Below are positions 6,006 to 36,361 of a stretch of 64,000 bases of DNA, piece after piece; the stretch's first letter is position 1, and every line of letters starts with the position of its first letter. Made by a program: the position numbers and the translations under genes. Source of the stretch: a virus; IMG/VR virus record IMGVR_UViG_3300036790_000811, positions 1 to 64,000 of that record, one strand, 5' to 3'. The notes below the pieces were generated by a model. The model was not told the DNA's origin. It saw only the letters and a list, made by a program, of their open reading frames with translations, and searched no databases.

Positions 6006-6578
6006 TTACCGTCCTGTGACATCACCAGGGGAAGGGTTCCACGCTGCCCTGCACTTGTAGCAGGCCACGGTGCCGGCCGACGTCTCGATCACGGGATGCC
6101 CGGGGTGCGTGGCGTGATAGCGGATCAGGGCAGCATCGCGGGGGAGGACGGGCAAAATCTCATTAGAGTGAGTCTCATTAGTATCGTTGCTCATCTGGGT
6201 GAGCACGGTAGGTTGCTCACCCAGATGAGCAAGGTCGGGCATGGTGATGCCGTAGACCGTGGCTTTTCCCGGTCGCTTGCGCTCGGTGAGCCATCCCAGC
6301 GATACGAGAGTGGCAAGGTGCCGCCGCACGGTTGCCTGCCCGAATCCCGTCATGGTGGCTAGCGTGGCGACGGACGGTCGTAGCTCATGTCCCCACGTTC
6401 CGTACCGGCCGGCGAGCCATGATGCTGTCCACCGGATGTCCTGCGACCCTTTGGCGGTACCGAGCTTGCGGAGCGTCTCGTCACTGCCCATGGCGGCGAA
6501 CCATGCTGTCAGCCCCTCTGAGGGACGCCGACCCCCGGATCGGTACATCGGGACCCCCCGTCCCGGAAACCGGCTCAC
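6006..6578 (-). CDS. winged helix-turn-helix protein (190 aa)
   Basis: The middle (about residues 70-105) reads as a winged HTH: PSVATLATMTGFGQATVRR, then HLATLVSLGWLTERKRPGKA, the usual pattern of plasmid and phage replication or regulatory proteins. A C-terminal CYKC pair could bind metal with nearby residues. The start is GTG 6578 or ATG 6548 (MYRSGGRRPSEG); neither has a good ribosome site. It sits directly upstream of the leftward promoter at 5950 and downstream of a terminator, so it may be a regulator of that promoter. That is inference. Confidence 0.7.
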   Translation of the reverse strand: MSRFPGRGVPMYRSGGRRPSEGLTAWFAAMGSDETLRKLGTAKGSQDIRWTASWLAGRYGTWGHELRPSVATLATMTGFGQATVRRHLATLVSLGWLTERKRPGKATVYGITMPDLAHLGEQPTVLTQMSNDTNETHSNEILPVLPRDAALIRYHATHPGHPVIETSAGTVACYKCRAAWNPSPGDVTGR

Positions 6579-6658: not shown

Positions 6659-7030
6659 TCAGTTGCTCTCGTCGCAGTTGTTGAGCTGACCGGACCGGAG
6701 CGTGCAGGTGAATTCCGCGTACTTCCCGTTGACCAGCGCGGTGCGGCTCACCCGATTCCCGCCGACGCTGACCCATCCGGCAGAGTCCCACCGGGTCACG
6801 GCAGGACGGGGAGCCGGATGACGGCTCATCAGCGGTCCCTGGAACTGAAGGACGGCCATCACCATGGCGGTCATCGCCAGGGCCGCCATGGCGATAGCCA
6901 GGGGCAGGAAGCGCTTTGGGTAGGTCATGGTAGCCATCGTCCCCAGGCGCGCCCAGAAGAGGCACCGGGAACTGTGCAGCGGACGGTACAGCGGCGTAGC
7001 GGCGGGGGCGGGAGTTCCTGCGTGCCTCAT
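6659..7030 (-). CDS. single-pass membrane protein (123 aa)
   Basis: ATG 7030 is eight bases after GAAAGGA and is preferred among three close ATGs. The N-terminal 35 residues are Pro/Ala/Arg-rich. One hydrophobic segment follows (about residues 41-65, FLPLAIAMAALAMTAMVMAV). The C-terminal domain has two Cys (FTC, NNC) that could form a disulfide outside the membrane. Shorter starts at MATMTYPK are possible and would give a plain signal-anchor. Role is unknown; a surface or exclusion protein is one possibility. Confidence 0.65.
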   Translation of the reverse strand: MRHAGTPAPAATPLYRPLHSSRCLFWARLGTMATMTYPKRFLPLAIAMAALAMTAMVMAVLQFQGPLMSRHPAPRPAVTRWDSAGWVSVGGNRVSRTALVNGKYAEFTCTLRSGQLNNCDESN

Positions 7031-7057
7031 GATCATCATCCTTTCACCGGTCTATCA

Positions 7058-7070
7058 GTACCAAAGGTAC
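7058..7070. promoter_or_regulatory. 13-base palindrome, possible operator
   Basis: GTACCAAAGGTAC, perfect 5-base arms, located about 28 bases upstream of the membrane protein start and downstream of a TTGACC element (read leftward). The position fits an operator controlling that gene. Confidence 0.4.
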
Positions 7071-7344
7071 ACCATCGGGGGATCGGTCAACACCCTCGGA
7101 GGGAACCAATCTGGCAGTACCTCTATAGGGTTATGCCGTTATACCCCGATATCAGGGGACTTGTCCGTTTCGCATCATCGTACTGGACCGCTGGTCAATT
7201 TTAGAAGGGTGAGTTTACTAGTTTTTAGTGGACGGATGTCCGTTAAAACGTGAGTGTGTGTGAGTGCAGTGATGGAGGGCACTGCGACAGCACGGCGAGC
7301 CGTAGCCTGCCTGCCATTCACCACTTCCACGCACCTAGACCACC

Positions 7345-7358
7345 GTTTCACGTGAAAC
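7345..7358. promoter_or_regulatory. parS site 1
   Basis: GTTTCACGTGAAAC, a perfect 14-base palindrome identical to the core ParB-binding parS sequence of Streptomyces and Bacillus chromosomes. The extended 16-mer is CGTTTCACGTGAAACA, one mismatch from the Bacillus consensus. No parA or parB gene is present in the window. Confidence 0.85.
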
Positions 7359-7430
7359 ATTCACTTCCTCCGTCCTGTACTCGACTACCACTGACTACGT
7401 GCTACGGTAACCGACCCTGTGCTACCGTTC

Positions 7431-7449
7431 GCTAGTCTGTGAGACTAGC
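7431..7449. repeat. inverted repeat next to parS 2
   Basis: GCTAGTCT-GTG-AGACTAGC, perfect 8-base arms and 3-base loop, four bases before the second parS. Could be a terminator-like hairpin or a binding site. Confidence 0.5.
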
Positions 7450-7452
7450 ACC

Positions 7453-7466
7453 GTTTCACGTGAAAC
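7453..7466. promoter_or_regulatory. parS site 2
   Basis: Second exact GTTTCACGTGAAAC, 108 bases from the first and in the same flanking context (CACC before, A after). Two exact 14-base copies in a phage intergenic region are very unlikely by chance. Confidence 0.85.
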
Positions 7467-7720
7467 AGTACCTGTGACTCAGTCCCCGGACGAGTCCGGA
7501 GCTGCCCCGTGGTCACCTCCCTGTAGAGCCGGGCTCCCCTGAGAGGGAAGCCCCCCGGGGTGGGGAGGGCGCCGGGACCCGCCCCGGGATGATTCGCCCC
7601 GAGGGGGGCAGGTGGTGCTGGGACGGCAGCCCCTATAGCGCACCAGAAGAAAATTCCCTTCGGGCGATGCGAAATTTACAAAAAAAGTAAACTTCCTCGC
7701 GCGTTACGAGAATCCCGTTC

Positions 7721-7909
7721 TCATTCCCTGCCTGGGCGGTTCTTCTTGCGCACGTACTCCCGGTGCGCTTCCAGCTCCTCCGGGGTGAGAACCCGGGTCT
7801 CTACCTCACCGTCGCGTTCATGGTCAAGACGCTCAAGCTCGTGCTCGCGCCTCTCAGCGCCAGACCGTGTCGTCCATGTCCCGAACGTCGGGTAGGGGTC
7901 TTTTATCAC
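7721..7909 (-). CDS. charged small protein (62 aa)
   Basis: GTG 7909 with AAGG four bases upstream. The protein begins MIKDPYPTFGTWTTRSGAER and is dominated by Glu/Arg (HELERLDHERDGE), probably a long helix. It lies alone between the terminator at 7978-8005 and the parS region. Its leader contains TTGACA and TATGAT elements whose spacing is too short to form one promoter. No family recognised. Confidence 0.55.
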   Translation of the reverse strand: MIKDPYPTFGTWTTRSGAERREHELERLDHERDGEVETRVLTPEELEAHREYVRKKNRPGRE

Positions 7910-11526: not shown

Positions 11527-11639
11527 GGTATTCGTCAAGCCGTACTGCACGCCTGACCGTCTTCCGGGATACGGACGGCGAGAACTCGATCCGGGTTCTT
11601 GCCTACGGAGAGATCGCCGACGCGCTGGCAGATGACTAG
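11523..11639 (+). CDS. 38-residue hypothetical protein
   Basis: ATG 11523 overlaps the upstream stop (ATGA). It ends with a plausible fold (VFRDTDGENSIRVLAYGEIA, then DALADD) and a TAG just before a strong terminator. The overlap, coding-like composition and terminator support a real gene. Function unknown. Confidence 0.6.
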   Translation: MRYSSSRTARLTVFRDTDGENSIRVLAYGEIADALADD

Positions 11640-11645
11640 ACGGGG

Positions 11646-11677
11646 GAATAGCCGGATGACCGGCTATTCTCTTTTTT
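11646..11677 (+). terminator. intrinsic terminator
   Basis: Perfect 10-base stem GAATAGCCGG / CCGGCTATTC, 4-base loop, then TCTTTTTT. The T-tract ends at the base before the next gene's GTG. Confidence 0.9.
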
Positions 11678-12301
11678 GTGCCGAAAACTATCTCCCCGCA
11701 TGTGGCGCTCCGTTCCCGCCTGAAGGAAACGGTGACCGAAGTTCTCGCGCTCAACACCCGGCTTGAGGCCATCATCACCGTCAAGCCTTCTCATCCGTCA
11801 TCCGGATTTCACGGGAAGATCGATTTCAGCTCCCCCCCCTGGCATGCCCAGGCGGCGAATACGGTTCTCGATCTTCACGCCTGGAGCCGGGACGCGGAAG
11901 CTCTCACGCGGATCCGGGCCACTCTCCCCGCCCGCTACCGGGGCGGAAGTTCCGCCAATACCCGCAAGGCCCTCGGCTCGCTCTACAGCCTGTCCGAAGG
12001 AATCGATGATGCCGTCGTCTACGACACGATCCGCTGGCTGGAAGGCTGGTGCCGCAAGGCCGAAGTCGTTCTCGGCGAGCGGGAGGCGATACGCCGGCTT
12101 CCGCAGCAGCCGGGTGAGACTGCCCGGCTCTGCCCGTGGTGCCGGAAGGATACGTTGCGGCAGATGACCCGGCAGGGTGTCATCTTCTGCGTTGACATCC
12201 TCTGTAGATCGGAGGATGGGGATCGCCCCCGTGCCCAGCTGGAGATGTTTGACGGTCAGTGGGAGTTGAGATGGATGGACGGTGTTCTTGGAACTCCCTG
12301 A
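11678..12301 (+). CDS. phage protein with C-terminal C4 zinc motif (207 aa)
   Basis: GTG 11678 directly follows the T-tract of the terminator and has no ribosome site. TATTCT (11665-11670), the last part of the hairpin arm, is a possible -10 for a leaderless transcript. The N-terminal 140 residues are helical (SLYSLSEGIDDAVVYDTIRW). The end has CPWC and C-x4-C pairs typical of a treble-clef or ribbon. Related proteins appear just before terminase genes in actinobacterial phages, as I recall. A packaging or DNA-binding role is possible. Confidence 0.65.
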   Translation: MPKTISPHVALRSRLKETVTEVLALNTRLEAIITVKPSHPSSGFHGKIDFSSPPWHAQAANTVLDLHAWSRDAEALTRIRATLPARYRGGSSANTRKALGSLYSLSEGIDDAVVYDTIRWLEGWCRKAEVVLGEREAIRRLPQQPGETARLCPWCRKDTLRQMTRQGVIFCVDILCRSEDGDRPRAQLEMFDGQWELRWMDGVLGTP

Positions 12302-16461: not shown

Positions 16462-18293
16462 AGTACGTCCCGTACTATCCGGGAGGCTGGGAAAACGGCA
16501 GCGGCGGAGATACTCCCATTATCGCCGCCGCCCTTGACGTCATGGAAGCGGGCATCGGCGCAGCGGCGCTGCCGACTACCGTGATGGTCACTACCGTCGG
16601 AGCCACATTCAGTCCCTGGGTGACGGCCAGCACAACGTCAATTACGCTTTTCTGGTCCAGTCCGGGGTTCAGTACCGTTACCGGAACGGCACCGACTCTT
16701 TCTTTCGGGTCAGCGGGTACTCGCGCTGTCTATATGACGGCGATTGACTCGAATGGCTATGATGCCATGAGTCAGGTTCAGATGTTCAATATCGGATTTC
16801 TCAATACTGATGACGAAGGTCAGTCATCTCTGCCGTCGTCGTACAACTGGACATCTCAAGAAGTTTCGGCCGTGGCGAACGTAAACTCCATGACTGGCCT
16901 CCAGGTCTTCTGTGCCGCCAATATTGCCACTCTTGGGGGAACACTCGATTGCTCGGGGATGGGTCAGCTTCAACATATTGAGTGTTACGCATCCCAGTTT
17001 CAGAATGTATACGTCTCAGGGTGTATTAGCATGATTCGGCTTTGTGTCGAGGAAAATAACCTGACGGTACTCAATATCAATCCGGTTCAGCCGAACCTGC
17101 TTGACCTGCGTGCCGCAGGTCAAGCAGGTGATGCCCTGACGCTTGTGCCACTTGCTATTGACGCGCTATCCGAGTGGCATTTTTGTATCCGGGACCAGGT
17201 GATTACGAACTGGCCCGACCTCGGAACGCAATTCCCGGTACTGGAAGAACTCTGGATATGGAATACCGGTTACAGCGGGGAGCTGGCTCCCGGATCGATA
17301 TTGCTGACCAACGTGCAAGCATACGATAATTCCGGGCTTACCTCAGCGGTATTTGCGGATGGCGCATTCTCAGATAACGACACGTATCTTGACTTGCACG
17401 ATTGCACGCTGGCTTCGATTACACTTCCGACGACTAATGGCCTGATCTATGTGGACCTATCCGGGAATGCCCTTGACACCGCTCAGGTTAATTCCGTTCT
17501 TGAGAACCTAGCGGGTAATAGCATCGCTGACGGCATAGTTAACCTCAGCGGTGGCACTAATGGTGTTCCGTCTGGCGGGGGAAGTACTGCCGTCACAACA
17601 CTGGAAGGGCGTGGGTGGACAGTAACCGTCAATTCCGGCGGGGGTGGCAATTTCACTCACGAGGACAGCGCGTTTAATTCCAGCACGTCAGCGACATCGC
17701 TGAGTATTACATTGAGCGGCGCCGTCAGCGCGGGTGACTTGTTGGTAATGGTGGTACAAACCGCTGGCGGCAGTACGAATGTCACCGTCACCGACACCGC
17801 CAGTAATGTATGGGCATCTTCTGATGGAGGCCAGACCTGGTACTGTCTGTCGTCGCTTGCCGCGCCGTCAGGCTTGACCGTGACCGCTGTCGTTACGGGT
17901 GATTATTATATTCACCAGGTACTTGCCGACCGGTTTGCTCATAATGGAACTGTCACTTACGGGGCGGGTGTCAGTACGGGAAGTTCTGGTACGCCGGGTC
18001 TTAACTACAACAACACGGGATGCGGTGACCTTGGCACTGTTGCGGCCGGGGTGCTGGCGTGGGGTGCATTCAGTAGTGATGACACGACCGGTAATCAGGA
18101 GTATACGGCCGGGTTCCAGAGCGGTTCCAGCGGAACCGCCGACGTGATTGGCTCCCAGTTTGCCGGGGCGGCGGGTACTGGCGTAAGCATGTACGTCCTC
18201 GACTGTGTGAACGCTGATGTGACACTAACGTGGTACGGCACGGGCGGCGCGGCATTCGGACATGCAGTCAGTGCTTATTTCCCGACGTCGTAA
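16458..18293 (+). CDS. leucine-rich-repeat adhesin-like protein (611 aa)
   Basis: N-terminus MKYVPYYPGGWENGSGGDTP and ALDVMEAGIG are typical of phage tail-fibre N-termini. Residues about 130-370 form irregular leucine-rich repeats (VCEENNLTVLNINP-type, LYVDLSGNALDTAQ-type), a fold used for protein or glycan binding. Residues about 400-611 form a beta module (ITLSGAVSAGDLLVMVV) that resembles the N-terminus of the tail protein at 51826-55347. The coding region is visibly less GC-rich than its neighbours, suggesting acquisition. A receptor-binding or virion surface protein is the best guess. Its place between terminase and portal is unusual. Confidence 0.65.
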   Translation: MKYVPYYPGGWENGSGGDTPIIAAALDVMEAGIGAAALPTTVMVTTVGATFSPWVTASTTSITLFWSSPGFSTVTGTAPTLSFGSAGTRAVYMTAIDSNGYDAMSQVQMFNIGFLNTDDEGQSSLPSSYNWTSQEVSAVANVNSMTGLQVFCAANIATLGGTLDCSGMGQLQHIECYASQFQNVYVSGCISMIRLCVEENNLTVLNINPVQPNLLDLRAAGQAGDALTLVPLAIDALSEWHFCIRDQVITNWPDLGTQFPVLEELWIWNTGYSGELAPGSILLTNVQAYDNSGLTSAVFADGAFSDNDTYLDLHDCTLASITLPTTNGLIYVDLSGNALDTAQVNSVLENLAGNSIADGIVNLSGGTNGVPSGGGSTAVTTLEGRGWTVTVNSGGGGNFTHEDSAFNSSTSATSLSITLSGAVSAGDLLVMVVQTAGGSTNVTVTDTASNVWASSDGGQTWYCLSSLAAPSGLTVTAVVTGDYYIHQVLADRFAHNGTVTYGAGVSTGSSGTPGLNYNNTGCGDLGTVAAGVLAWGAFSSDDTTGNQEYTAGFQSGSSGTADVIGSQFAGAAGTGVSMYVLDCVNADVTLTWYGTGGAAFGHAVSAYFPTS

Positions 18294-18866: not shown

Positions 18867-21800
18867 ATGGCTGACAAGCGCCGGGTTGCCGCCGCACTGA
18901 AGTCAATTCCCGGGGCTCGCCCCACGATGGCTCCTCAGTCGTCGGGGTACGGTTCCGCGTCGCCTATCGCGGCGATGATGAACCAGCAGAACCAGTTCGC
19001 CAACTCCTATGGTCCTTTCCTGCCCCGGCCGAGCCAGGTGTTCACCGACGGCGCTTTCGGTCCCATGTCGCCCATTCAGCCGGTGCCGGTGGACAATCCC
19101 CCGCCGGGAGGGGAGTTCGCCGACCCCAGAAGCTGGGAATACCGGGTCGGCTGGAACCTTCCGACTCCTCCGGGGACTGAGGGTCTCAAGCTGGCAAGCT
19201 TCCAGCAGCTGAAGACCCTCAGTGAGAAGTACTGTTTGGCACCAGAAACCCGGGTACTCTGCTCGGACTTCACGTGGCGTCAGCTATCGGACATCAGCGT
19301 GGGTGATGAGCTCATCGCGTTTGACGAAGATCCCCCCGCTCGTGGACTGCACCGTAAGATGCGGTTTGCGACAGTGACGGCGTATGACCGGATTACACGT
19401 CCCTGCTACCGGGTGACACTGACAGACGGTCGTACGGTTGTCGCATCCGCCGAGCATCTATGGCTTGCCGGACGTGACAAGGCGGATGGTTCCTGCGCCT
19501 GCGAAATCTGCGGAAAGCAGTTCGGCCGCGCTCAGGGGCTGGGTGTGCACCGCAGGCAGGTTCACGATATCGAGGGTCAGTGGAAGCACAACAACTTCGG
19601 AGCATGGACGGTGACGGCGCAGCTGCGCCCGGGAAGCACTATCCGTGATCTCGGCTCCCCCTGGGAAGAGGATTTTTCCCGGGAAGCCGGCTATCTCTCT
19701 GGCGTTTACGACGGGGAAGCTTCTCTTAATATCGCGAACGGTAATCATAAAGGCTGGGGAATTGGATTCCCGCAGAATGCTGGTCCGGTTTTCGATGAAG
19801 TAGAAGCCATTCTCAAGCGCAAGGAATATGGTTTTCGGATTCACGGTCCAGGTATTAATGACTCCTGTAAGCATATTACGATCAGCGGGATGCGTGATTG
19901 TTTCCGCTTCATGGGAGAAATGCGCCCTCTTCGTCTTCTAGGAAATGCCAGGAAGTGGATAGAGGGAAATAGCCCTTCCCGTGCTGGATGTGCGACCGTG
20001 GAATCCGTAGAATTCCTGGGCGAGCGAGAGGTAATCGCTGCCGGCACGAGCACGAGCACGCTTATTGCGGAAGGGCTGTTTTCGCACAACAGCGTCGCCC
20101 GCGCCTGCATCGACCTGCGCCAGCAGGAGATCCGTGGTCTCGAATGGGAGATCACGATGACCAAGGAAGCGGCGAAGGCATACCAGAACTCGCACGCCAG
20201 GATGAAGGACTTCGGGGTCCGCGCGGCGGAGGCCACGAAGTTCTTCAAGCGTCCCGATCCGGATTATTGGACGTTCAGCTCGTTCATGAACGCGATGCTG
20301 GAAGAGATCTTCGTCTACGACGCCCTGAGTGTCATCTTCCGTCCCAAGTACGGTGCCAAGTTCGGGCGCGGCGGTCGCGGGCTCCTCGGCAGCGACCTGG
20401 ACTCGCTCCGTCTCATTTCGGGACCGACGATCCGTCCCCTGGTGGACCTGCACGGCAACATCCCCAAGGCTCCGGGGACTCCGGCCTACCAGCAGTACCT
20501 GTACGGCGTCCCCCGCTCGGACTACATGTCCATCCTTCGGGGTGACGACATTGCGGGAACCGTCCTGGCGGGGTCGGAATACAACGAGTTCACCGCCGAC
20601 TTGATGCTGTACGCCCCCTACTGGCCGCGCCGGGAGACCCCCTACGGCTTCCCGCCGATTGAGCGCGCCCTCTTGCCGGTGATCGCCGGGCTTCAGAAGC
20701 AGGAATACCAGCTTGACTTCTTCTCCGAGGGTTCGGTTCCGGCGGTCTATATCTCCCCGGGTGACCCCAATATCACCCCGACGCAGATCAAGGAGCTGCA
20801 AGACGCCCTGAACGGGATCGCAGGGGATCCGGCGTACCACATGAAGGTCGTCGTCCTCCCTCCTGGCTCTAAGGTCGAGCCGCAGAAGCCCGTGGATCTC
20901 GCGGACTCCTTCGACCTGCTCGTTCAGACTCAGGTGTGCATGGCATTCGATTGCCAGCCGGCAGAGCTGGGCATTCTGCCGAACGTGGGCAGCAACCAGG
21001 GCGGTGGCGGAGCCTCGGCCGGTGCCATCCGCCTCGGCATGCAAGAAGCCCGGGACATCAAGTCCCGCAAGTCCACGAAGCCGACCCTGCACTTCATCGC
21101 CAGCATCTTCAACTATATCCTTCAGGATGTCTGCGGCCAGAAGGACATGAAGTTCACCTTCGAGGGCCTCGCCGACGACGAGGACCAGCAGGCGATTACC
21201 GACCTCGGCGTCCAGCAGGTCCAGAACGGTATCGCGTCTATCGATGAGGTCCGGGACCGCCTTGATCTTCCCCCATGGGGCCTGTCCGAGACGTCGGAGC
21301 CGGTGGTCTTCACCGCCCAGGGGCCGATCCCGTTCTCCATGGCCCCGCAGCTCATCGCGAACATGCAGGGACAGAACGGAGGGTCGTCGTCATCCGGGAA
21401 CTCGAACAATGGTACCCAGTCCAGCAATTCCGGGCAGCGCACTTCCTCCTCGCGGACGAGGACGAATCAGCCCTCGGTGCGAGCCGGAGGGCAGACCAAG
21501 CCCAACGGCAGTCATCAGGCGCCGATCGCCCCGCATCGCGAGTCCCTGACGCCCGCACATAGTGCCGCCAGCGGGGCCGTGCAGAGCCCTACTCCCCGAA
21601 CTGGCGGCACCCCTTCGCGATCAAGTGTGGCCGGATCGAGGAAGAAGGCGGTGGAGGCTGAGTTCGGTGCCCTGAAGCGCCACCTCCGCAAGGGCCGGCT
21701 GATTACCACCTGGGAAACGCGGCACATTCCCGAGCGGTCCCTGTCCATGATTTCGGAGGACATCGCCAACGGCCTGCTGATTGACTCCGCCGTGGACCGG

Positions 21801-24014
21801 GCCACCGATTTCGTTCTGAAGGACGAAGAGGACATCTTTGAGCCGATCGTGGCCAAGGCACAGCAGTGGCCGGGCTGGGAGCGCGATCTCGGGCTCGTCG
21901 GTGCCTATAAGCAGCAGATTGAGGGAGCCTTTGCCGTTGCCCAGGCCAAGGGTGAGCAACTGCGCCACAAGGCGGCCAACGGGGGCATGTTCGTCTCCAG
22001 CTCTGCCCTGCGGGGACTCATTTCGGATGAGATGCATGACACTTTCCTGGGGGTTCTCCAGCCTCTGTGGAGCGAAGCGTGGCACCTCGGTTACGAGGCG
22101 GCCAAATCTCTGGTCACGGGCCAGGACGCGGACTTCGCCGTCAAGCACGAGAGCGGTGCGCTCGACGGGTTTATCGACACCCAGGGCGCTCACTGGGCGG
22201 AACAGATCGCCCGGACCGGCCTGAAGAACGAGAACGCCCGGACTGAGGCTATCGCCCGGACCGAAATAGCCCGCGCCGTGAACGCGGCGGCCATCCAGGC
22301 GTACCGGGACTACGGTGTCACCCACAAGCAGCTCATGCTTGCTCCTGATGACGCCTGCGACATCTGCAAGGATGCCGAGGATGAGGGTGTCATCCCGCTG
22401 GACGCGATCTTTCCTCAGGGAGGTCTTGGCGGTCCACTTCATGTTTCGTGCCGATGTGTCCCTGTCGCCGCCGGGATCGAGTTGGAGCCTCCGCAGGGAC
22501 ATCTCGGCAAGAGCCTTCTCGGGGATCTGGCTGCATCCGGTCCCTTTCCTTCCAGTGGGCCCGATCACCCCTACAGGCAGGACGGGCAGTCCGGAGCTGG
22601 CAACTGCGAGTGCGGTCATGCCGCAAGTGCACACGAAGATAAGTCCCGGCTTGCTTGGCTGCTGATGCGCGCCCGGGATGATGACGGCAAGTACCGCTTC
22701 CTGCTCCAGCAGCGGGACGACGGCACCTGGGGTATGCCCGGCGGCACGACTCACGTCGGGGAAGATCCGTGGGACGCCGCTATCCGCGAGTGTACGGAAG
22801 AAGTCGGGGACCTTCCGGGCATGACCGTGGCCGCCACGTTCCACCACGAGGAAGACAATGGCGCTCGCGCCTACGTCTGGATGGTGGACGTTCCCTATTT
22901 CCAGCCGAAGATGAACGGCTCGACTCCCGAGGAGACCCAGGGTGTCGCCTGGTTCCGGCGCAAGGAGATCGACAAGCTTAACCTGACCGGAAAGTTCCGC
23001 GAAGACTGGGAGCAGACGCCCGATATCCGGGAGTACGCCACCAAGAACCAGAACATGGTGAACGAATCCGGTGAGCGACTGGCGATCGTGGACTCCCAGG
23101 CACCGCTGCACGCTTCGGGAGCGCGGTGGCCCTACCCGAACCGGTCGCCGAACGGCTTTCCGATCGAGGACCCGCACTACAACCAGGCACCGGGCGAAAT
23201 GGGAGCCAGCGAGCCTCCCCGCAAGGACCTGGACAGCGATACCCCGACCCGGCTGTACCCCAGGGGTACCGAAGACGAGAAATTCCCGCCCAGGAGGGGA
23301 AAGGGCAAGCCCGCCAAGAAGTTCCCGGAGCAGGGCGACGAACAGTGGCCCGAGACCGAGAACGGCGGAGCGCAATCATCGTCCGCTCAGGTAGGGGGCA
23401 ATACGGGAGTCCCGAAAGCGGGTCCCGTGCCGGCGGTAGGGAGCGTCCCGGCGAAGACGCCGACTCCGATGGCGCCCCGGAGTGTTCCTCCGCAGGTTTA
23501 CGATCCCGCTGACGCGGTGGCGACGGAAGAAGACGGGGAAATCGCGTACTACCCCCAGCCGAAGCCGAAGAAGGGAAAGGGTGCCGCGAATTACACGGAC
23601 CCTTCTCCGGTGGACGCCGAGCACGTATACGTTCAGCTCGCCAGGAATTTCCCACCAAAAGCTATTGCCTGGGTTCAGCGAGCTCGATGGATCGGCCCCA
23701 TCTGGATTCCGTGGGATCGGATTGATACTGACGACCAGGATGAATGGGCCGCCTCCCACCAGCCTGAGCACGTGAAAGATTTCATGCGCCAGATCAAGGA
23801 TCATGACGGCCGGATCGTCCCGTCGGTCCTGGTTCAGGAGCCAGACGGCGGAAAGGCGTTCATCGTAGACGGTCATCACCGTGCTCTCGCCCGGGAAAAG
23901 CTGGAGCAGCCGGTGCTCGCTTATCTCGGGACGATTAACCCGGATGATCGGCAGGCGGCACTGGAAACCCATAGCGCCCAGGTTCATCACGGTGCCGACC
24001 ATGACAATAACTGA
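18867..24014 (+). CDS. portal-MuF-Nudix-ParB-like fusion protein interrupted by an intein (1715 aa)
   Basis: Residues 1-122 and 409-830: phage portal (ring at the head vertex through which DNA passes). Residues 123-408: intein. Residues about 925-1200: MuF/SPP1 gp7-like head morphogenesis domain (EAIARTEIARAVNAAAIQAY, then CDICKDAEDEG and HVSCRC). Residues about 1255-1385: Nudix hydrolase with box GTTHVGE...REC-EEVG. Residues about 1590-1700: ParB/sulfiredoxin-like domain with VDGHHRALA. Linkers are Ser/Pro/Gly-rich. After splicing about 1,429 residues remain. AAAAGGAG before the ATG is a good ribosome site. The Nudix and ParB-like parts may be enzymatic cargo carried in the virion; that is inference. 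Confidence 0.88.
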   Translation: MADKRRVAAALKSIPGARPTMAPQSSGYGSASPIAAMMNQQNQFANSYGPFLPRPSQVFTDGAFGPMSPIQPVPVDNPPPGGEFADPRSWEYRVGWNLPTPPGTEGLKLASFQQLKTLSEKYCLAPETRVLCSDFTWRQLSDISVGDELIAFDEDPPARGLHRKMRFATVTAYDRITRPCYRVTLTDGRTVVASAEHLWLAGRDKADGSCACEICGKQFGRAQGLGVHRRQVHDIEGQWKHNNFGAWTVTAQLRPGSTIRDLGSPWEEDFSREAGYLSGVYDGEASLNIANGNHKGWGIGFPQNAGPVFDEVEAILKRKEYGFRIHGPGINDSCKHITISGMRDCFRFMGEMRPLRLLGNARKWIEGNSPSRAGCATVESVEFLGEREVIAAGTSTSTLIAEGLFSHNSVARACIDLRQQEIRGLEWEITMTKEAAKAYQNSHARMKDFGVRAAEATKFFKRPDPDYWTFSSFMNAMLEEIFVYDALSVIFRPKYGAKFGRGGRGLLGSDLDSLRLISGPTIRPLVDLHGNIPKAPGTPAYQQYLYGVPRSDYMSILRGDDIAGTVLAGSEYNEFTADLMLYAPYWPRRETPYGFPPIERALLPVIAGLQKQEYQLDFFSEGSVPAVYISPGDPNITPTQIKELQDALNGIAGDPAYHMKVVVLPPGSKVEPQKPVDLADSFDLLVQTQVCMAFDCQPAELGILPNVGSNQGGGGASAGAIRLGMQEARDIKSRKSTKPTLHFIASIFNYILQDVCGQKDMKFTFEGLADDEDQQAITDLGVQQVQNGIASIDEVRDRLDLPPWGLSETSEPVVFTAQGPIPFSMAPQLIANMQGQNGGSSSSGNSNNGTQSSNSGQRTSSSRTRTNQPSVRAGGQTKPNGSHQAPIAPHRESLTPAHSAASGAVQSPTPRTGGTPSRSSVAGSRKKAVEAEFGALKRHLRKGRLITTWETRHIPERSLSMISEDIANGLLIDSAVDRATDFVLKDEEDIFEPIVAKAQQWPGWERDLGLVGAYKQQIEGAFAVAQAKGEQLRHKAANGGMFVSSSALRGLISDEMHDTFLGVLQPLWSEAWHLGYEAAKSLVTGQDADFAVKHESGALDGFIDTQGAHWAEQIARTGLKNENARTEAIARTEIARAVNAAAIQAYRDYGVTHKQLMLAPDDACDICKDAEDEGVIPLDAIFPQGGLGGPLHVSCRCVPVAAGIELEPPQGHLGKSLLGDLAASGPFPSSGPDHPYRQDGQSGAGNCECGHAASAHEDKSRLAWLLMRARDDDGKYRFLLQQRDDGTWGMPGGTTHVGEDPWDAAIRECTEEVGDLPGMTVAATFHHEEDNGARAYVWMVDVPYFQPKMNGSTPEETQGVAWFRRKEIDKLNLTGKFREDWEQTPDIREYATKNQNMVNESGERLAIVDSQAPLHASGARWPYPNRSPNGFPIEDPHYNQAPGEMGASEPPRKDLDSDTPTRLYPRGTEDEKFPPRRGKGKPAKKFPEQGDEQWPETENGGAQSSSAQVGGNTGVPKAGPVPAVGSVPAKTPTPMAPRSVPPQVYDPADAVATEEDGEIAYYPQPKPKKGKGAANYTDPSPVDAEHVYVQLARNFPPKAIAWVQRARWIGPIWIPWDRIDTDDQDEWAASHQPEHVKDFMRQIKDHDGRIVPSVLVQEPDGGKAFIVDGHHRALAREKLEQPVLAYLGTINPDDRQAALETHSAQVHHGADHDNN
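19233..20090 (+). mobile_element. intein in the portal gene with C2H2 finger and endonuclease-like domain (286 aa)
   Basis: Starts at Cys123 (CLAPETRVLCSD) and ends GLFSHN before Ser409, the classic C...HN|S splice borders. An HINT-type block is seen at VGDELIAFDE and at the C-terminal segment EVIAAGTSTSTLIAEGLFSH. Between them are a classical C2H2 zinc finger (C-x2-C-x12-H-x4-H, residues 212-233) and a single degenerate LAGLIDADG-like motif (GYLSGVYDGEASL, 275-287). The flanks KY and SVARACIDL join into normal portal sequence after splicing. Confidence 0.88.
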
Positions 24015-28008: not shown

Positions 28009-29871
28009 GTGGCAGAAATTGTCACTGAGGCGGTTAACGCTGCGCAAAATGTGCGCGAGCAGGATGCCGCCCAGGCCCGTCGTAGCACCTATGAGGGCAT
28101 GTTCACGTCCAAGGCCAAGAACCTCGTCAAGGGTGCCGGTCACGTCTCTAACGGCGGCGTGCCGCTGGACGACGTCACCCACGCCGGCGAGATCCTGACC
28201 AAGTCTCACCAGGCGATCCTGAGTACCCGGGCGGCCACTGCCGAAGGTGTCAACAACACCGACTCGGTCGTCAACCGGATCTCCGGCGACTTCTGGGCCA
28301 GCCGCCAGGCCGGCGGCATCAAGCACATGGCCAAGCGCGACAGCGACATCCGCAAGTCGTTCACGGCCGGCAACCTCGGGCAGAACGGGGTTCCTTACGG
28401 CCTGGTCCCGTTCGACCTGCTTGCGCCTTCCCGCCTGATCTACCCGGTCTACACCCTCTTCCGGAACAAGTTCCCGCGTCCCGCCGGACAGGGCGCCTCG
28501 CGCCAGGTTTACGGCCTGCTGGGCATCTCCGGTTCGCAGACCGGCGGACAGGGTGTCGTTGACATCTCCATCCCGGAGCTTGTTTCCGGCTCGAACGCCA
28601 ACATGGGTACCTGGCCCCTGAACATCCCCAAGACCGGGTCGCAGACCGAGTACAAGCTCAACGTTCCCTATCGCTTCTTCGGCCTGTCCGAGTCCCTGAG
28701 CTGGCTCGCCCAGTTCGAGGGCCAGGGCTTCGAGGACATCAGCGCGCTGGCCAACCTGGTTCTGCTTCAGGAAATGATGCTGGGCGAGGAATACCAGATG
28801 ATCGCGGGCTCCTCGCAGAGTCTCCCCGTTCCCGGCGCCCCCACTCTGGTCGCCCGTACGGCGGGATCGAACGAGACCCAGTTGAACGGCGGCACGGGCG
28901 CGACCCTGTATGTCAAGGTCACGGCGTTGAACTACTTCGGCGAGACGACGGCGGTTACAGGCGCGAACGTCGCGTTCCTGGCTGGTCAGGTCGTAGACGT
29001 TGCCATCTCTCCCGTCGCCGGGGCGCAGCAGTACAACGTTTACGCCTCCACCTCCAGTGCGGCAACGGCCGGTATCCAGGTCGGTACGACCGTGCAGGCT
29101 GGCGTGACCTATCAGGGTCTCCAGTCGGCCAACTCGGTCGGCGGTACCCGAATCACTCTTCAGGGCGCCGTTAACACTTCCGGTCAGGTGGTTCCGACTG
29201 TTGACTCCGGCACTGGTTCCAGCCAGCGCATGGAGGGTCTCATCCCGACCTTGTCGGGCCTGTCGTCCACCGGTTCTGGTCCTTACGCCAACGTGGGCTT
29301 CGAGTCCTCGGGCGTCTGGAAGGGCGGCTACGTCAACCAGAACGTCGGCACCCACCTGAGCACCAACGCGATCTTCACCGCGCTGGACGCCCTGTGGGAG
29401 AACAACGGCATGAACAACGTCAGCCCGGGTTCCTACAAGGCGGACCCGAGTGAGATCGTTGCCGACGGCGGCGACCTCATGCGGCTGGCGAACGACATGC
29501 TGCTCCAGGGCGCCGGCATGAACTACCTGCTCAACATCTCCCAGGACCAGATCTCTGGCATCCGGGCCGGTGCTGCGGTGGCGGAGTTCGTGAACCCGGT
29601 GACGCGCTCCACGGTCAAGCTCACGGTCCACCCGTGGATGACCCAGGGCACGGCACTGCTGATGTCCTACCAGCTCCCGCAGACGTGGTCTCACGTTGAC
29701 AATGCGTGGGAGATGACCGTCGTTCAGGATTATACGTCTTGCGCGTGGCCCGTCATTGACGCTACGTTCCGGTACAGCATCTTCTTGCTCGGCAGCCTCG
29801 TTGCCCATGCCCCCTTCTACTCGGGCATCCTTTCCGGGCTTCAGGTAAGCGACACGACCCCGTACTCCTGA
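28009..29871 (+). CDS. major capsid protein with inserted FN3/Ig-like domain (620 aa)
   Basis: GTG 28009 after GGAGGAAGT. HK97-fold capsid protein by position and by A-domain-like segments (SQDQISGIRAGAAVAEFV; YTSCAWPVIDATFRYSI). Residues about 275-385 (PGAPTLVARTAGSNETQLNG onwards, with KVTALNYFGETTAV) look like a fibronectin-III or Ig-like insertion that would stick out from the shell. Length is well above the family's usual 300-400 residues because of this and long arms. Confidence 0.85.
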   Translation: MAEIVTEAVNAAQNVREQDAAQARRSTYEGMFTSKAKNLVKGAGHVSNGGVPLDDVTHAGEILTKSHQAILSTRAATAEGVNNTDSVVNRISGDFWASRQAGGIKHMAKRDSDIRKSFTAGNLGQNGVPYGLVPFDLLAPSRLIYPVYTLFRNKFPRPAGQGASRQVYGLLGISGSQTGGQGVVDISIPELVSGSNANMGTWPLNIPKTGSQTEYKLNVPYRFFGLSESLSWLAQFEGQGFEDISALANLVLLQEMMLGEEYQMIAGSSQSLPVPGAPTLVARTAGSNETQLNGGTGATLYVKVTALNYFGETTAVTGANVAFLAGQVVDVAISPVAGAQQYNVYASTSSAATAGIQVGTTVQAGVTYQGLQSANSVGGTRITLQGAVNTSGQVVPTVDSGTGSSQRMEGLIPTLSGLSSTGSGPYANVGFESSGVWKGGYVNQNVGTHLSTNAIFTALDALWENNGMNNVSPGSYKADPSEIVADGGDLMRLANDMLLQGAGMNYLLNISQDQISGIRAGAAVAEFVNPVTRSTVKLTVHPWMTQGTALLMSYQLPQTWSHVDNAWEMTVVQDYTSCAWPVIDATFRYSIFLLGSLVAHAPFYSGILSGLQVSDTTPYS

Positions 29872-32100: not shown

Positions 32101-33105
32101 GTGAAGATCTTCGTGACCGGCATCGCCGGTTTTCTCGGGGCGCACATTGCTCGTGAGGCGATAGACCGGGGCTGGGAAGTCACCGGGATCGACAGCATGC
32201 TCTCGGCGGTTGACGATACGCTTGAAGGTGCCGAATGGAAGAGGACGGACTGTCGAGATGCCGACAGTTATGCGGATCTGATTCACGATGTAGATGTCGT
32301 TTATCACTGCGCAGCAGCTCCCTATGAGGGACTTTCGGTCTTTTCTCCCCAGATCGTTTTCGAGAACACCCTGCTTTCTACCGTTGGTCTTCTCCGGGCG
32401 TCGGTGAATGCTGGAGCGCGCCGATTCATCTTCGCTTCCTCCATGTCCCGTTACGGTCATGGAGCACCCCCTTTCACTGAAGAGACGTCGTCGGTCCCCG
32501 TTGATCCATACGGAGTGGCGAAGGTCTCGGCCGAGAACGCAGTGAAGAACATCTGTGACCTGCACGGCCTGGAATGGGTCATCGCAGTTCCGCATAACGT
32601 CTACGGCCCCGGCCAGCGATACTGGGATCCGTACCGCAATGTTCCGGCGATTATGGTCAATCGGGTGTTGCAGGGCAAGCCGCCGGTCGTCTACGGAAAC
32701 GGTTCACAACGCCGGTCACTGTCCTATGTGGCCGATGTCAGTGTCCCGATGATCGCCATGGCGGATCACCCTCACGCTCCCGGCGAGATCTTCAACGTGG
32801 GACCCGGCGGGGCGGGTGTTACGATCGCAGAGCTGGCGGAGAAGATCATCCGGCTGGCGAACGTGGACTTCGATCCCGAGTACTATCCTGATCGTCCGAG
32901 TGAGGTGCGCTACGCCTTCTGTTCAGACGAGAAGACCCGGAACGTTCTCGGCTATGAGTGCCAGTGGACCCTGGAGGCGGGACTGGAGAAGCTTATCGCC
33001 TATATCGCCGAAAAGGGTCCCCGGCCGTTTGACTACCATCTCCCGCTGGAGATCACCAATACTCCGCTTCAGACGCCGCGTACGTGGACCGAGAGACTGA
33101 TGTAG
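32101..33105 (+). CDS. NAD-dependent sugar epimerase/dehydratase (SDR family, 334 aa)
   Basis: GTG 32101 behind AAAGGG. Extended SDR fold: TGIAGFLG nucleotide-binding motif (residues 6-13), FASSM (111-115) and catalytic Y137-x3-K141 (YGVAK), and a C-terminal substrate domain. Acts on nucleotide sugars in the cytoplasm, most like UDP-/GDP-sugar 4-epimerases and reductases. One-base overlap with the next gene (TAGTG) shows a joint operon. Exact substrate cannot be read. Confidence 0.85.
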   Translation: MKIFVTGIAGFLGAHIAREAIDRGWEVTGIDSMLSAVDDTLEGAEWKRTDCRDADSYADLIHDVDVVYHCAAAPYEGLSVFSPQIVFENTLLSTVGLLRASVNAGARRFIFASSMSRYGHGAPPFTEETSSVPVDPYGVAKVSAENAVKNICDLHGLEWVIAVPHNVYGPGQRYWDPYRNVPAIMVNRVLQGKPPVVYGNGSQRRSLSYVADVSVPMIAMADHPHAPGEIFNVGPGGAGVTIAELAEKIIRLANVDFDPEYYPDRPSEVRYAFCSDEKTRNVLGYECQWTLEAGLEKLIAYIAEKGPRPFDYHLPLEITNTPLQTPRTWTERLM

Positions 33106-34196
33106 TGGAACGTATCCGTTACGGCGGGATCATCGCGGGAGGCGAGGAAATTGCTGCGGTTACCGAGGTTCTCAAAGGCCAGGAGTGGGCTTCCGGAGCC
33201 AAGGTCGCAGAATTCGAGGAAAAGGCCGCCGGGTGGCAGGGATGCCGTCGCGCACTTTTTGTCAATTCCGGGTCCTCGGCGCTACTGCTTGCGATGTCTG
33301 TTCTTCCGGAACATTCCCGGATCGCGATGCCAGCACTTCAGTTTCCCACGCTTTACAGTGCCGCAGTCCGGATCGGGCATATCCCGGTGCTCGTGGACAT
33401 TGACGACACCCTGAACATGGATCCGGCCCGATTGGACGAGGTGACCGGAAGCGTTGATGCCGTGGCTTTCGTTCACATGGCTGGCAATCCGGCGAACATC
33501 AGGGAAGTACGCGATATCTGCGCTCGGCACGGTCTCCTTCTGATTGAGGACGTTTGCGAGGCTCTCGGGGCTTCCGATGATGGCATCAGGGCAGGAAAAG
33601 TCGGACTCGTCTCCGCTGTCTCTACCCATGGGGCTCATCACATCTGCACCGGGGAGGGCGGTCTCGCTTTCACCGACGATGAAGCCGCTTACCAGAAGAT
33701 GCGGCGCATTCGCGACTGGGGTCGCGCTTACGGAACTTTCGAGATTCCGGGATACTACGAGCATTACATCTTCTCGGAGCTAGGCTTCAATCTCCACGCA
33801 AGTGACATTCAGGCCGCATTGGGGATCGTCCAGCTCGATCGTGCCGGAGGATTCATCGAGCGGCGCAGGGAAAACTGGGATCACCTGCGGCACGAGATTC
33901 GGGAAATGCCCATAGAACTTCCCCGGACAGGTACCGATCCGTCATGGTTTGCCTTTCCGATGCTGGTTCCGGAAAGACGCGCGGAGTTTATCTCCCACCT
34001 GGAAAACTCGGATATCGAATGCCGGACTATTGTCGCGGGAAACATGCCCCGACAACCAATTTGCAATGACAATCCGGAGCGCTTTCCATTTGCGGACAAG
34101 TGGTTCCATCGCGGATTGTGGATCAGTGTTCATCCCCGGATTACACCCGAGCAGATAGCGTACGCCGGAGAGAAGGTCAGGGAGTTCTGGGCGTGA
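33105..34196 (+). CDS. RfbH/ColD-like PLP-dependent sugar 3-dehydrase (363 aa)
   Basis: GTG 33105 (TAGTG overlap) is the start. DegT/DnrJ/EryC1 fold, but the PLP-binding lysine position reads STHGAHHICTGEGG: His replaces Lys, the hallmark of E1/RfbH and ColD sugar 3-dehydrases. RDWGR, NLHASDIQAALG and VAGNMPRQP also match that family. E1/RfbH place a [2Fe-2S] cluster through Cys residues right after RDWGR. Here that segment (AYGTFEIPGYY) has none, so it is closer to ColD in that respect. Predicted reaction: removal of the 3-OH from a 4-keto-sugar nucleotide. Confidence 0.85.
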   Translation: MERIRYGGIIAGGEEIAAVTEVLKGQEWASGAKVAEFEEKAAGWQGCRRALFVNSGSSALLLAMSVLPEHSRIAMPALQFPTLYSAAVRIGHIPVLVDIDDTLNMDPARLDEVTGSVDAVAFVHMAGNPANIREVRDICARHGLLLIEDVCEALGASDDGIRAGKVGLVSAVSTHGAHHICTGEGGLAFTDDEAAYQKMRRIRDWGRAYGTFEIPGYYEHYIFSELGFNLHASDIQAALGIVQLDRAGGFIERRRENWDHLRHEIREMPIELPRTGTDPSWFAFPMLVPERRAEFISHLENSDIECRTIVAGNMPRQPICNDNPERFPFADKWFHRGLWISVHPRITPEQIAYAGEKVREFWA

Positions 34197-34858
34197 CACG
34201 CGTTTCGGTTCTACTGACTACCTATAATCGCCCCGCAATGCTCGAAGAGGCTGTTCAGTCGGTACTGACACAGACATACACCGACTATGAACTGTTCATC
34301 CTTGATGACAATTCTTCCCTTTCTGAACAGCATGCCCTGATCGCTGGGTACTGGAACGATCCCCGTGTGCGCGTCTACAAGGACAACGTTTCCCGGGAGC
34401 GACGACGTGACCGTGTTCGCTATGCGACCATGATTAACGTGGGTCTCCAGCTCGCACGAGGGGAGTACATCACTTACCTGTGCGATGACGACCTGTTCTT
34501 GCCCGACCGGCTGGAGACGATGACTGCCCGGCTAGACCAGGGCGACTGTCAGGTGGTCTACGGGGAACAGCAGATGGAGAATTACCGGGGCGCAGATCGC
34601 GGTATCCGTTTCCAAGCTGCTGGGGTTCTGGAAAACGCCTACGGCGTGGACCACTCCTCGGTCATGCACACCAAGGGTGCCTCCGATGCCGTCGGAGGCT
34701 GGGACGACAATCCCGGTCGCTGGCATGACGCCGATGCTGCATTCTGGGCACGTCTGACAAGTGCGGGATATCATTTTCATCCAGTAAACAAGGTTACCGA
34801 TATCCATCGGTTCCATGATGCCTCAGTGCAATCATCGGGATACGGCAGGGATTTTTAA
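34193..34858 (+). CDS. family 2 glycosyltransferase (221 aa)
   Basis: GTG 34193 overlaps the upstream stop (GTGA). MTRVSVLLTTYNRPAMLEEA is the standard GT2 start, LDDNSS the first acidic motif, and CDDDLFLPDRLE the DxD motif. Ends within the GT-A domain. It would transfer the sugar made by the two previous enzymes. Acceptor unknown (virion protein, DNA or host wall). Confidence 0.85.
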   Translation: MTRVSVLLTTYNRPAMLEEAVQSVLTQTYTDYELFILDDNSSLSEQHALIAGYWNDPRVRVYKDNVSRERRRDRVRYATMINVGLQLARGEYITYLCDDDLFLPDRLETMTARLDQGDCQVVYGEQQMENYRGADRGIRFQAAGVLENAYGVDHSSVMHTKGASDAVGGWDDNPGRWHDADAAFWARLTSAGYHFHPVNKVTDIHRFHDASVQSSGYGRDF

Positions 34859-34888
34859 TGCAATTCAGTACTGACAGTGGAGGGTCCA

Positions 34889-35629
34889 ATGACTAATAGG
34901 GCTTTTGTTACCTACGCTGTCGGTGAAGGCGGTACAGGCACGATCACCCTATTCAATCAGCAATCAGTTACTCTCAATACTGTTACCGGAGATTACACTC
35001 TCGGATGCATGTTTTCGCTAAGTGAAGATATGCCCCTTGCTGGTATCTGGTGGTACTCACCTACCGGCGATACGAATCTTCCGACAGCATCCGTTATCTA
35101 CAATGCCGAGACTGAGTCGGAAGTGGCCGGTACGCTAAACGCTTCTCCTGCCTGGTCTGGGGTGGCAGGCTCCGGGTGGATCAGGTGCGACTATTCCGGC
35201 AGCGGCGTGACTTTGTCATCTGACGTGAATTACATAGCCTGTATTGTCCATAGCGGACTTCTTCAGGCTACCTCCAACTACTGGACGACGGGTACAGGCG
35301 CATCCGGTATCACCAGTGGCCCACTATCGGCACCGAATTACTCTTCGTCGGGAAATCTTCAGGATTCGTACGTATTTTCTTCCAGTACTCCTGATTTTCC
35401 GACCGATTCAGATGGCAGTAATTACTGGGTGGACGTTGAGGTCGGAACTCCGGCACTGCCTGTAAATGCGCAAGCGGTTATTGTCGGGCCAGACGGATCT
35501 TTTATCGATAATCTGTCCGTGACAACCCAGCTTAGCTATAACTACGAGAAATGGCAGGTGGAGAACAATCTTGCCGTCGCCCTTCGCGAAGCAGCCGAAG
35601 ACGATACTCTCGGCGTAGTTTTCCTGTAA
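34889..35629 (+). CDS. DUF4082-like beta-sandwich protein (246 aa)
   Basis: ATG 34889 behind GGAGGG. Segments LGCMFSLSEDMPLAGIWWYS and GWIRCDYSGSGVTLSSDVNY resemble DUF4082, a beta-sandwich domain of surface proteins. The C-terminal 55 residues (VIVGPDGSFIDNLSVTTQLS) are separate. Probably a virion surface protein, perhaps the glycosylated or glycan-binding partner of the neighbouring enzymes. Lower GC than flanks. Confidence 0.6.
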   Translation: MTNRAFVTYAVGEGGTGTITLFNQQSVTLNTVTGDYTLGCMFSLSEDMPLAGIWWYSPTGDTNLPTASVIYNAETESEVAGTLNASPAWSGVAGSGWIRCDYSGSGVTLSSDVNYIACIVHSGLLQATSNYWTTGTGASGITSGPLSAPNYSSSGNLQDSYVFSSSTPDFPTDSDGSNYWVDVEVGTPALPVNAQAVIVGPDGSFIDNLSVTTQLSYNYEKWQVENNLAVALREAAEDDTLGVVFL

Positions 35630-35656
35630 TTTTCCAACCTAGAAGAGGAGTGGCGA

Positions 35657-36361
35657 ATGAGTCTTCTGGTAATAGTCCCGACGCGCACCCGCAAGGCCCA
35701 GTGTGAGCGCCTCATCGAATCCTTCGAGAAGACGACCGACTCCGCTGAGCTGCTTTTCGTCGTAGACGGCGATGACGACAGCTATGAGACGATGGACTGG
35801 CGCGGTCACTCCTCCTCGACAATGTCCCCGAGGGGAAGTCTCGCCCAGAAGCTGAACCACACCGTGGATGCGGTGCTCGATAAATTTGATCAGATCATGT
35901 GGACCGGCGATGACCATGAGTTCGTCACCGAGCACTGGGATACTCTCCTCCTGGAAACGCTGGAAAAGCATGGCGGCTCAGGCTGGGTCTATCCCGACAA
36001 CGGCAGGCGCAAGGATGTTCCGGAGAGCTGGCTGTGCTCCTCCGACGTCATCCGGGAGCTGAACTGGTATGCGAACCCGATTCTCCAGCACTACTACATC
36101 GATAACTCGATTGCCGTGCTGGGCAAGCGCACTGGTCTTATGTATTACGCACCGGACGTGAAGATTCCCCATCATCACTACTCGGTGGACAAGCAGACCG
36201 AGTACGACGCGCTTTACAAGGAAACCGAGACCTCGTTCGGGCAAGCGGATGCTCAGGCATTTGCCACGTGGCACAACAGTCCGATGGCGTCGGGCGACGT
36301 CTCACGCCTGCGCCGCAAGTTTAATTCCGATGTAGCTTGGGCCATAGAGAAGGTGGCGTAA
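35657..36361 (+). CDS. glycosyltransferase-like protein (234 aa)
   Basis: MSLLVIVPTRTRKAQCERLI start with FVVDGDDDSYE and MWTGDDHEF acid motifs, a GT-A-type fold seen in many actinobacterial phages. AGAAGAGGAGT ribosome site. It lies in the same block as the SDR and 3-dehydrase and the DUF4082-like gene. Donor and acceptor unknown. Confidence 0.75.
   Translation: MSLLVIVPTRTRKAQCERLIESFEKTTDSAELLFVVDGDDDSYETMDWRGHSSSTMSPRGSLAQKLNHTVDAVLDKFDQIMWTGDDHEFVTEHWDTLLLETLEKHGGSGWVYPDNGRRKDVPESWLCSSDVIRELNWYANPILQHYYIDNSIAVLGKRTGLMYYAPDVKIPHHHYSVDKQTEYDALYKETETSFGQADAQAFATWHNSPMASGDVSRLRRKFNSDVAWAIEKVA

Follow-up and report, generated by a model that had tools for sequence, protein, structure and literature searches.

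Two exact host-type parS sites in an intergenic gap

The window, a 64,000-nucleotide stretch of a virus record of 76,489 bp, carries two exact copies of a host-type parS palindrome, and no gene for a ParB protein was detected in the record. We estimate a probability of about 0.58 that the palindromes are working parS centromeres read by the chromosomal ParB of the host, in which case the gain to the phage would most likely be the inheritance or positioning of its genome while lysis is deferred. The first site, parS-1, lies at 7345..7358, and the second, parS-2, lies downstream of it at 7453..7466. Both are the 14-bp palindrome GTTTCACGTGAAAC, to which no strand is assigned, and they are separated by 108 bp from start to start. 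With the consensus for chromosome-type parS taken from PMC7022226 and PMC13245405, each site showed 0 mismatches. The two exact palindromes 108 bases apart that a sequence-only reading of this DNA had described were confirmed at the positions given. The whole record contains just these two exact copies. A perfect 19-bp direct repeat, CACCGTTTCACGTGAAACA, is present at 7341-7359 and 7449-7467, where each copy encloses one parS. The segment bounded by the repeat (7341..7467, no strand) thereby holds both sites, with small inverted repeats in the spacer.

The pair is located in a 682-bp gap (7040..7720, no strand), which is the longest between predicted genes in the left 24 kb of the window. The gap has only short ORFs (61 aa) with no family match and is without convincing genes, and two AT-rich stretches are found inside it, at 7171-7260 and 7651-7710. 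A sigma-70 promoter scan of the gap returned no promoter, which is weak evidence in actinobacteria, and an RNA-family search gave no match. The first leftward gene after the gap (6659..7039, minus strand) encodes a 126-aa protein of no family. The parS pair is upstream of it, roughly 300-430 bp from the start of the gene, and ParB spreading from the pair could affect its promoter. The gene at 6006..6578, also on the minus strand, encodes a 190-aa HTH_36 protein (PF13730, 2e-7; phrog_391, 4e-9) that resembles phage O-like replication initiators. At the right border of the gap is a possible small gene of putative coding status (7721..7909, minus strand; 62 aa, no family). None of the relatives compared was found to cover the parS interval: G002 starts 2 kb and G001 about 4 kb to its right, and the 128-kb G004 has no homologous genes at this place. 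Among cultured phages, no close DNA relatives of the interval were found.

To compare the occurrence of parS with chance, we used Markov models and control palindromes. Order-1 to order-3 models predicted 1.4e-4 to 1.9e-4 exact sites in the 76,489-bp record, where 2 were seen. In 715 kb from the window phage and eight relatives, a set of nine records of which two were included because they carry parS, the site occurred 4 times, whereas the 419 alternative palindromes that can be built with its composition occurred 0 times. In unselected relatives (50 records, about 2.95 Mb), we found 2 exact parS and no site with one mismatch. By the Markov models, the same-composition palindromes and the control 16-mers described below, chromosome-type parS is commoner than chance, and the pair is very unlikely to be a chance event or an isolated oddity.

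Search for partition and lysogeny genes

Profile searches of the whole 76,489-bp record gave no match to ParB_N (PF02195) or to the ParA-type AAA_31 (PF13614). When most of the predicted ORFs were compared with Pfam, no ParA, ParB, recombinase or integrase was found. We also constructed our own ParB profile from three ParB proteins and any hits, and it matched nothing in the clade of the window phage; since this profile had few seeds, PF02195 was used as the main ParB test. Within the clade, a real ParB_N protein was found in a member that has no parS, G028 (G028:C1:8576-9364, L388). Of 26 clade records, 5 have a tyrosine integrase, which is absent from the record of the window phage. None of the three records with parS has an integrase, but the numbers are much too small to show that the two are mutually exclusive, and this apparent split was rejected.

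Because relatives reach 108-135 kb, the record is likely to be incomplete, and a phage without parB is therefore not fully proven. The sequence-only reading had reported no parA or parB in the window. The search of the sequence beyond the window likewise detected neither in the 76.5-kb record, and the statement stands for the PF02195 and PF13614 profiles over a record that probably lacks part of the genome.

Relatives and probable host of the phage

When IMG/VR was searched with the conserved protein encoded at 28009-29871, a large clade was retrieved with 77 loci on contigs of up to 135 kb. Our impression is that this clade is mostly from soil and that the window phage is a soil phage; no close relative of it was found among cultured phages. 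A single-protein scan of bacterial genomes found no integrated relatives, and a scan with alignment found 3 distant loci. Relatives of the 28009-29871 protein occur in Arthrobacter terricola, in an Actinomycetes MAG and also in an Armatimonadetes MAG. In the A. terricola genome, whose phage region is a distant relative (44% identity), one contig carries nine exact parS in a 6-kb span next to a parB gene; this cluster shows the host pattern.

The endolysin of the window phage (12779..13645, plus strand) combines LysM with an Rpf-type transglycosylase, which is a hint of an actinobacterial host. Outside the window, two genes on the minus strand (11574-11891 and 12880-13200 of L123, corresponding to 69574-69891 and 70880-71200 of the record) encode DUF397, which we take to be a family known from actinobacteria. 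The one plasmid match to DUF397 came from Nocardia, and no cultured phage record matched the first of the two genes. Considering the Rpf-type endolysin, the two DUF397 genes and the relatives together, the host is probably an actinobacterium of unproven genus. The palindromes had been assigned to the ParB target of Streptomyces or Bacillus chromosomes by the sequence-only reading; this host guess is narrowed to a probable actinobacterium, and Streptomyces specifically is unproven.

parS inside a nuclease gene of two relatives

Exact parS was found in 2 of 62 related records, with one site each in G041 (108 kb) and G047 (62 kb), and was missing from the remaining 60, many of them partial. As most relatives are without an exact site, parS is optional and not core. 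Neither G041 nor G047 has a match to ParB_N (PF02195). In both records, the site is located in a Cas4/RecB-like PD-(D/E)XK gene (64760-65722, minus strand, in G041 with a phage GC of 65%; 17246-18187, plus strand, in G047 with a phage GC of 56%), where it occupies the same codons (VSRET). The site falls in a loop, and 78 other fetched homologues of the gene lack the parS sequence there. The two nuclease genes share 69% of nucleotides and use the same codon at just 53% of identical residues. Despite this divergence in codon use, parS is intact in both genes in rare codons, with TCA representing 4-6% of serine codons. This points to selection at the level of the DNA and not of the protein, and speaks against the site being a simple operator.

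parS in other phages

The 16-mer TGTTTCACGTGAAACA was present in at least 120 IMG/VR contigs compared with 1 for the backward-read control palindrome. A query with the doubled 16-mer retrieved 213 GenBank phage records, which include duplicates and fragment records and do not represent 213 independent phages, compared with 0 for the control; each collection scan had one control palindrome of the same composition. Each of the 14 complete phage genomes checked had 1-4 exact parS, and ParB_N was absent from 12 of them, virulent phages among these. The 12 include the Herelleviridae phage Bacchae, the phi29-like B103, the Gordonia phages PatrickStar and Woes, and the Glutamicibacter phage Voltaire. 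Voltaire (L455, NC_073479.1 8743-8775) has two intergenic parS 19 bp apart, and the Bacillus phage vB_BcoS-136 (L461, 29257-30260) has four intergenic parS within 1 kb, in both cases with no ParB_N. Most parS were intergenic in the phage genomes whose annotation was read, and the genes beside them differed from phage to phage among the annotated phages compared. Among 50 viral records with parS, 41 were without a ParB_N match and 15 had the single terminase family tested. Compared with random positions, the 206 parS in viral contigs were 2.4 to 5.4 times more frequently located outside ORFs.

The general expectation is that phages encode their own partition system or need none. In the literature, covered mainly through open-access papers, we came across no survey of phages for host-type parS and no account of how widespread such sites are. 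We give even odds to the proposal that mimicry of the host centromere is widespread and evolved repeatedly in phages of actinobacteria, Bacillota and alphaproteobacteria, with the window phage as one case. Such phages, many without a ParB_N domain and some virulent, would keep 1-4 exact host parS so that host ParB and SMC segregate or position their genomes during deferred infection. Should phages routinely carry the host centromere, ParB of the host, with its CTP switch, and SMC would count among the host factors in infection, and there would be a simple and testable explanation of how 'lytic' phages survive while their host divides or sporulates. Gordonia PatrickStar and Woes, Glutamicibacter Voltaire and Arthrobacter Racecar, all of them cultured phages with parS, put this reading within experimental reach.

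Comparison with known partition systems

In S. coelicolor, the 14-bp parS of the chromosome is bound by chromosomal ParB but not by the ParBs of the SCP1 plasmid (PMC13245405), and the chromosomal parS of M. smegmatis matches the same motif (PMC7022226). Since S. coelicolor ParB binds a site identical to those in the window, host ParB should also bind the latter. The chromosomal parS of actinobacteria are the same 14-bp sequence as the phage sites; the window phage differs in having two sites with no adjacent parAB. PMC12704722 and PMC12511625 describe ParB-CTP as loading at parS, spreading, and engaging ParA and SMC.

The closest precedents are phi29 and SGI1. PMC9437464, citing Meijer et al. 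2005, reports that host Spo0J (ParB) mediates the entrapment of the phi29 chromosome in spores. The phi29-like B103 has an exact parS and no ParB_N gene, like the window phage. However, the phi29 family consists of unrelated 18-kb Bacillus podoviruses, and the exact site of B103 is inside gene 15, while the window phage is larger, has two close intergenic sites and is probably a phage of an actinobacterium. In SGI1, two mimics of the IncC parS bind the plasmid ParB, stabilise SGI1 and destabilise the helper plasmid (PMC10954446). Like the window phage, SGI1 is a mobile element that carries the parS of another replicon twice and has no parAB of its own. It differs in being an integrative island that hijacks the ParABS of a helper plasmid and encodes the helper protein Sci; in the window phage, the hijacked system would be chromosomal and no helper protein is known. 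A parS of a co-resident replicon with no parB is what we found in the window phage, within its incomplete record, and also in the 108-kb G041.

The extrachromosomal prophages RedRock and Miko are actinophages that, like the window phage, have parS and no integrase (PMC7157519). In contrast with the window phage, they have genes for ParA and ParB, and their parS, an array of 8-bp repeats, does not resemble that of the host (PMC7157519). The window phage has palindromes and not an 8-bp direct-repeat array, and no parA or parB was found in its probably incomplete 76.5-kb record.

Possible roles of the parS pair

Binding by host ParB, its spreading and a benefit to inheritance are what we infer for the window phage. 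After DNA entry, host ParB-CTP would load at the parS pair and spread over the adjoining phage DNA, and host ParA and SMC would then handle the phage genome like chromosomal DNA close to the origin. The phage genome would travel with the host origins and would not need parAB of its own. The gain would most likely be inheritance and positioning in pseudolysogeny, as an extrachromosomal prophage or, in a sporulating host, on passage into spores, which would be the natural setting in a streptomycete. The preference for inheritance through host ParABS is drawn from the precedents of phi29 with Spo0J and SGI1 with IncC. Against it, the record shows no sign of lysogeny, having neither an integrase nor a Par system, and a phage ParB could lie outside the probably incomplete record. 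That these are host-type sites without a visible ParB, which the phage could use to borrow host ParB, as the sequence-only reading suggested, is well supported within the limits of this record and generalises to many phages. It had left the use open among a plasmid prophage, replication or positioning, and a decoy; inheritance fits the two precedents best and a decoy fits worst, and the sequence does not decide among them.

The main rival is transcriptional control of the leftward operon from 7039, in which the spreading of host ParB would silence or delay the operon, including the initiator-like gene, and couple the lytic programme to the state of the host. The position of both sites upstream of this operon, the AT-rich stretches adjoining them and the repression of promoters near parS by chromosomal ParB, as given in PMC7022226 and in the title of PMC5521831, are consistent with it. 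However, the site of G041 and G047 is within the nuclease gene and not upstream of an operon, the neighbouring genes vary among other phages, and the promoter scan of the gap, although weak evidence in actinobacteria, was negative; we consider this role unlikely. The pair could also consist of operators or origin sites for a phage protein, either a DNA-binding protein whose site shares the parS sequence by coincidence or a phage ParB encoded outside the record. An incomplete record, the ParB_N protein of G028 and the phage HTH protein encoded near the sites would allow this. It is nevertheless improbable, considering that 14 of 14 bases equal the host consensus twice, that one-mismatch sites are missing from the 50 relatives, that 12 of the 14 complete genomes with the site are without ParB_N, and that the site recurs in unrelated phages beside different genes.

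A decoy, by which phage sites would titrate host ParB or misdirect SMC and disturb host chromosome segregation in infection, seems still more doubtful. In its favour, extra parS copies of SGI1 displace the IncC plasmid (PMC10954446), and the copy number of phage DNA is high in late infection. Of the uses proposed, a plain decoy is the poorest fit, since a phage genome has only 1-4 sites, compared with 9 in the related Arthrobacter genome; there is also little to gain once lysis is committed. The sites might finally be chance matches or functionless captured host DNA, since capture of a fragment followed by its duplication could have given the CACCGTTTCACGTGAAACA repeat, and few relatives have the site. 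We regard this explanation as highly improbable: chance is ruled out by the palindrome controls, the 16-mer controls and the Markov expectation, the surroundings show no other sign of host origin-region DNA, and the exact site recurs independently across phages.

Other features of the window

The window otherwise represents the structural module of a tailed phage, including the terminase. The 1715-aa fusion encoded at 18867-24014 has portal, MuF-like and NUDIX domains. Its residues 1613-1679 weakly match phrog_1033, 'ParB-like partition protein' (E 1e-4); we rejected this match as a partition ParB, as the protein is a structural polyprotein and has no PF02195 match. Near aa 212, the fusion also has an insertion resembling a zinc finger; the segment around it (aa 126-403) is missing from relatives. 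A weak cultured homologue of the 28009-29871 protein is annotated as a major head protein. Genes for an epimerase, an aminotransferase and a glycosyltransferase at 32101-36361, within the structural module, suggest glycan or sugar modification. In the relative G002 (L125 6900-10376), the gene for the terminase large subunit is interrupted twice compared with that of the window phage, with matches split at residues 65/68 and 418, which suggests introns, inteins or homing insertions.
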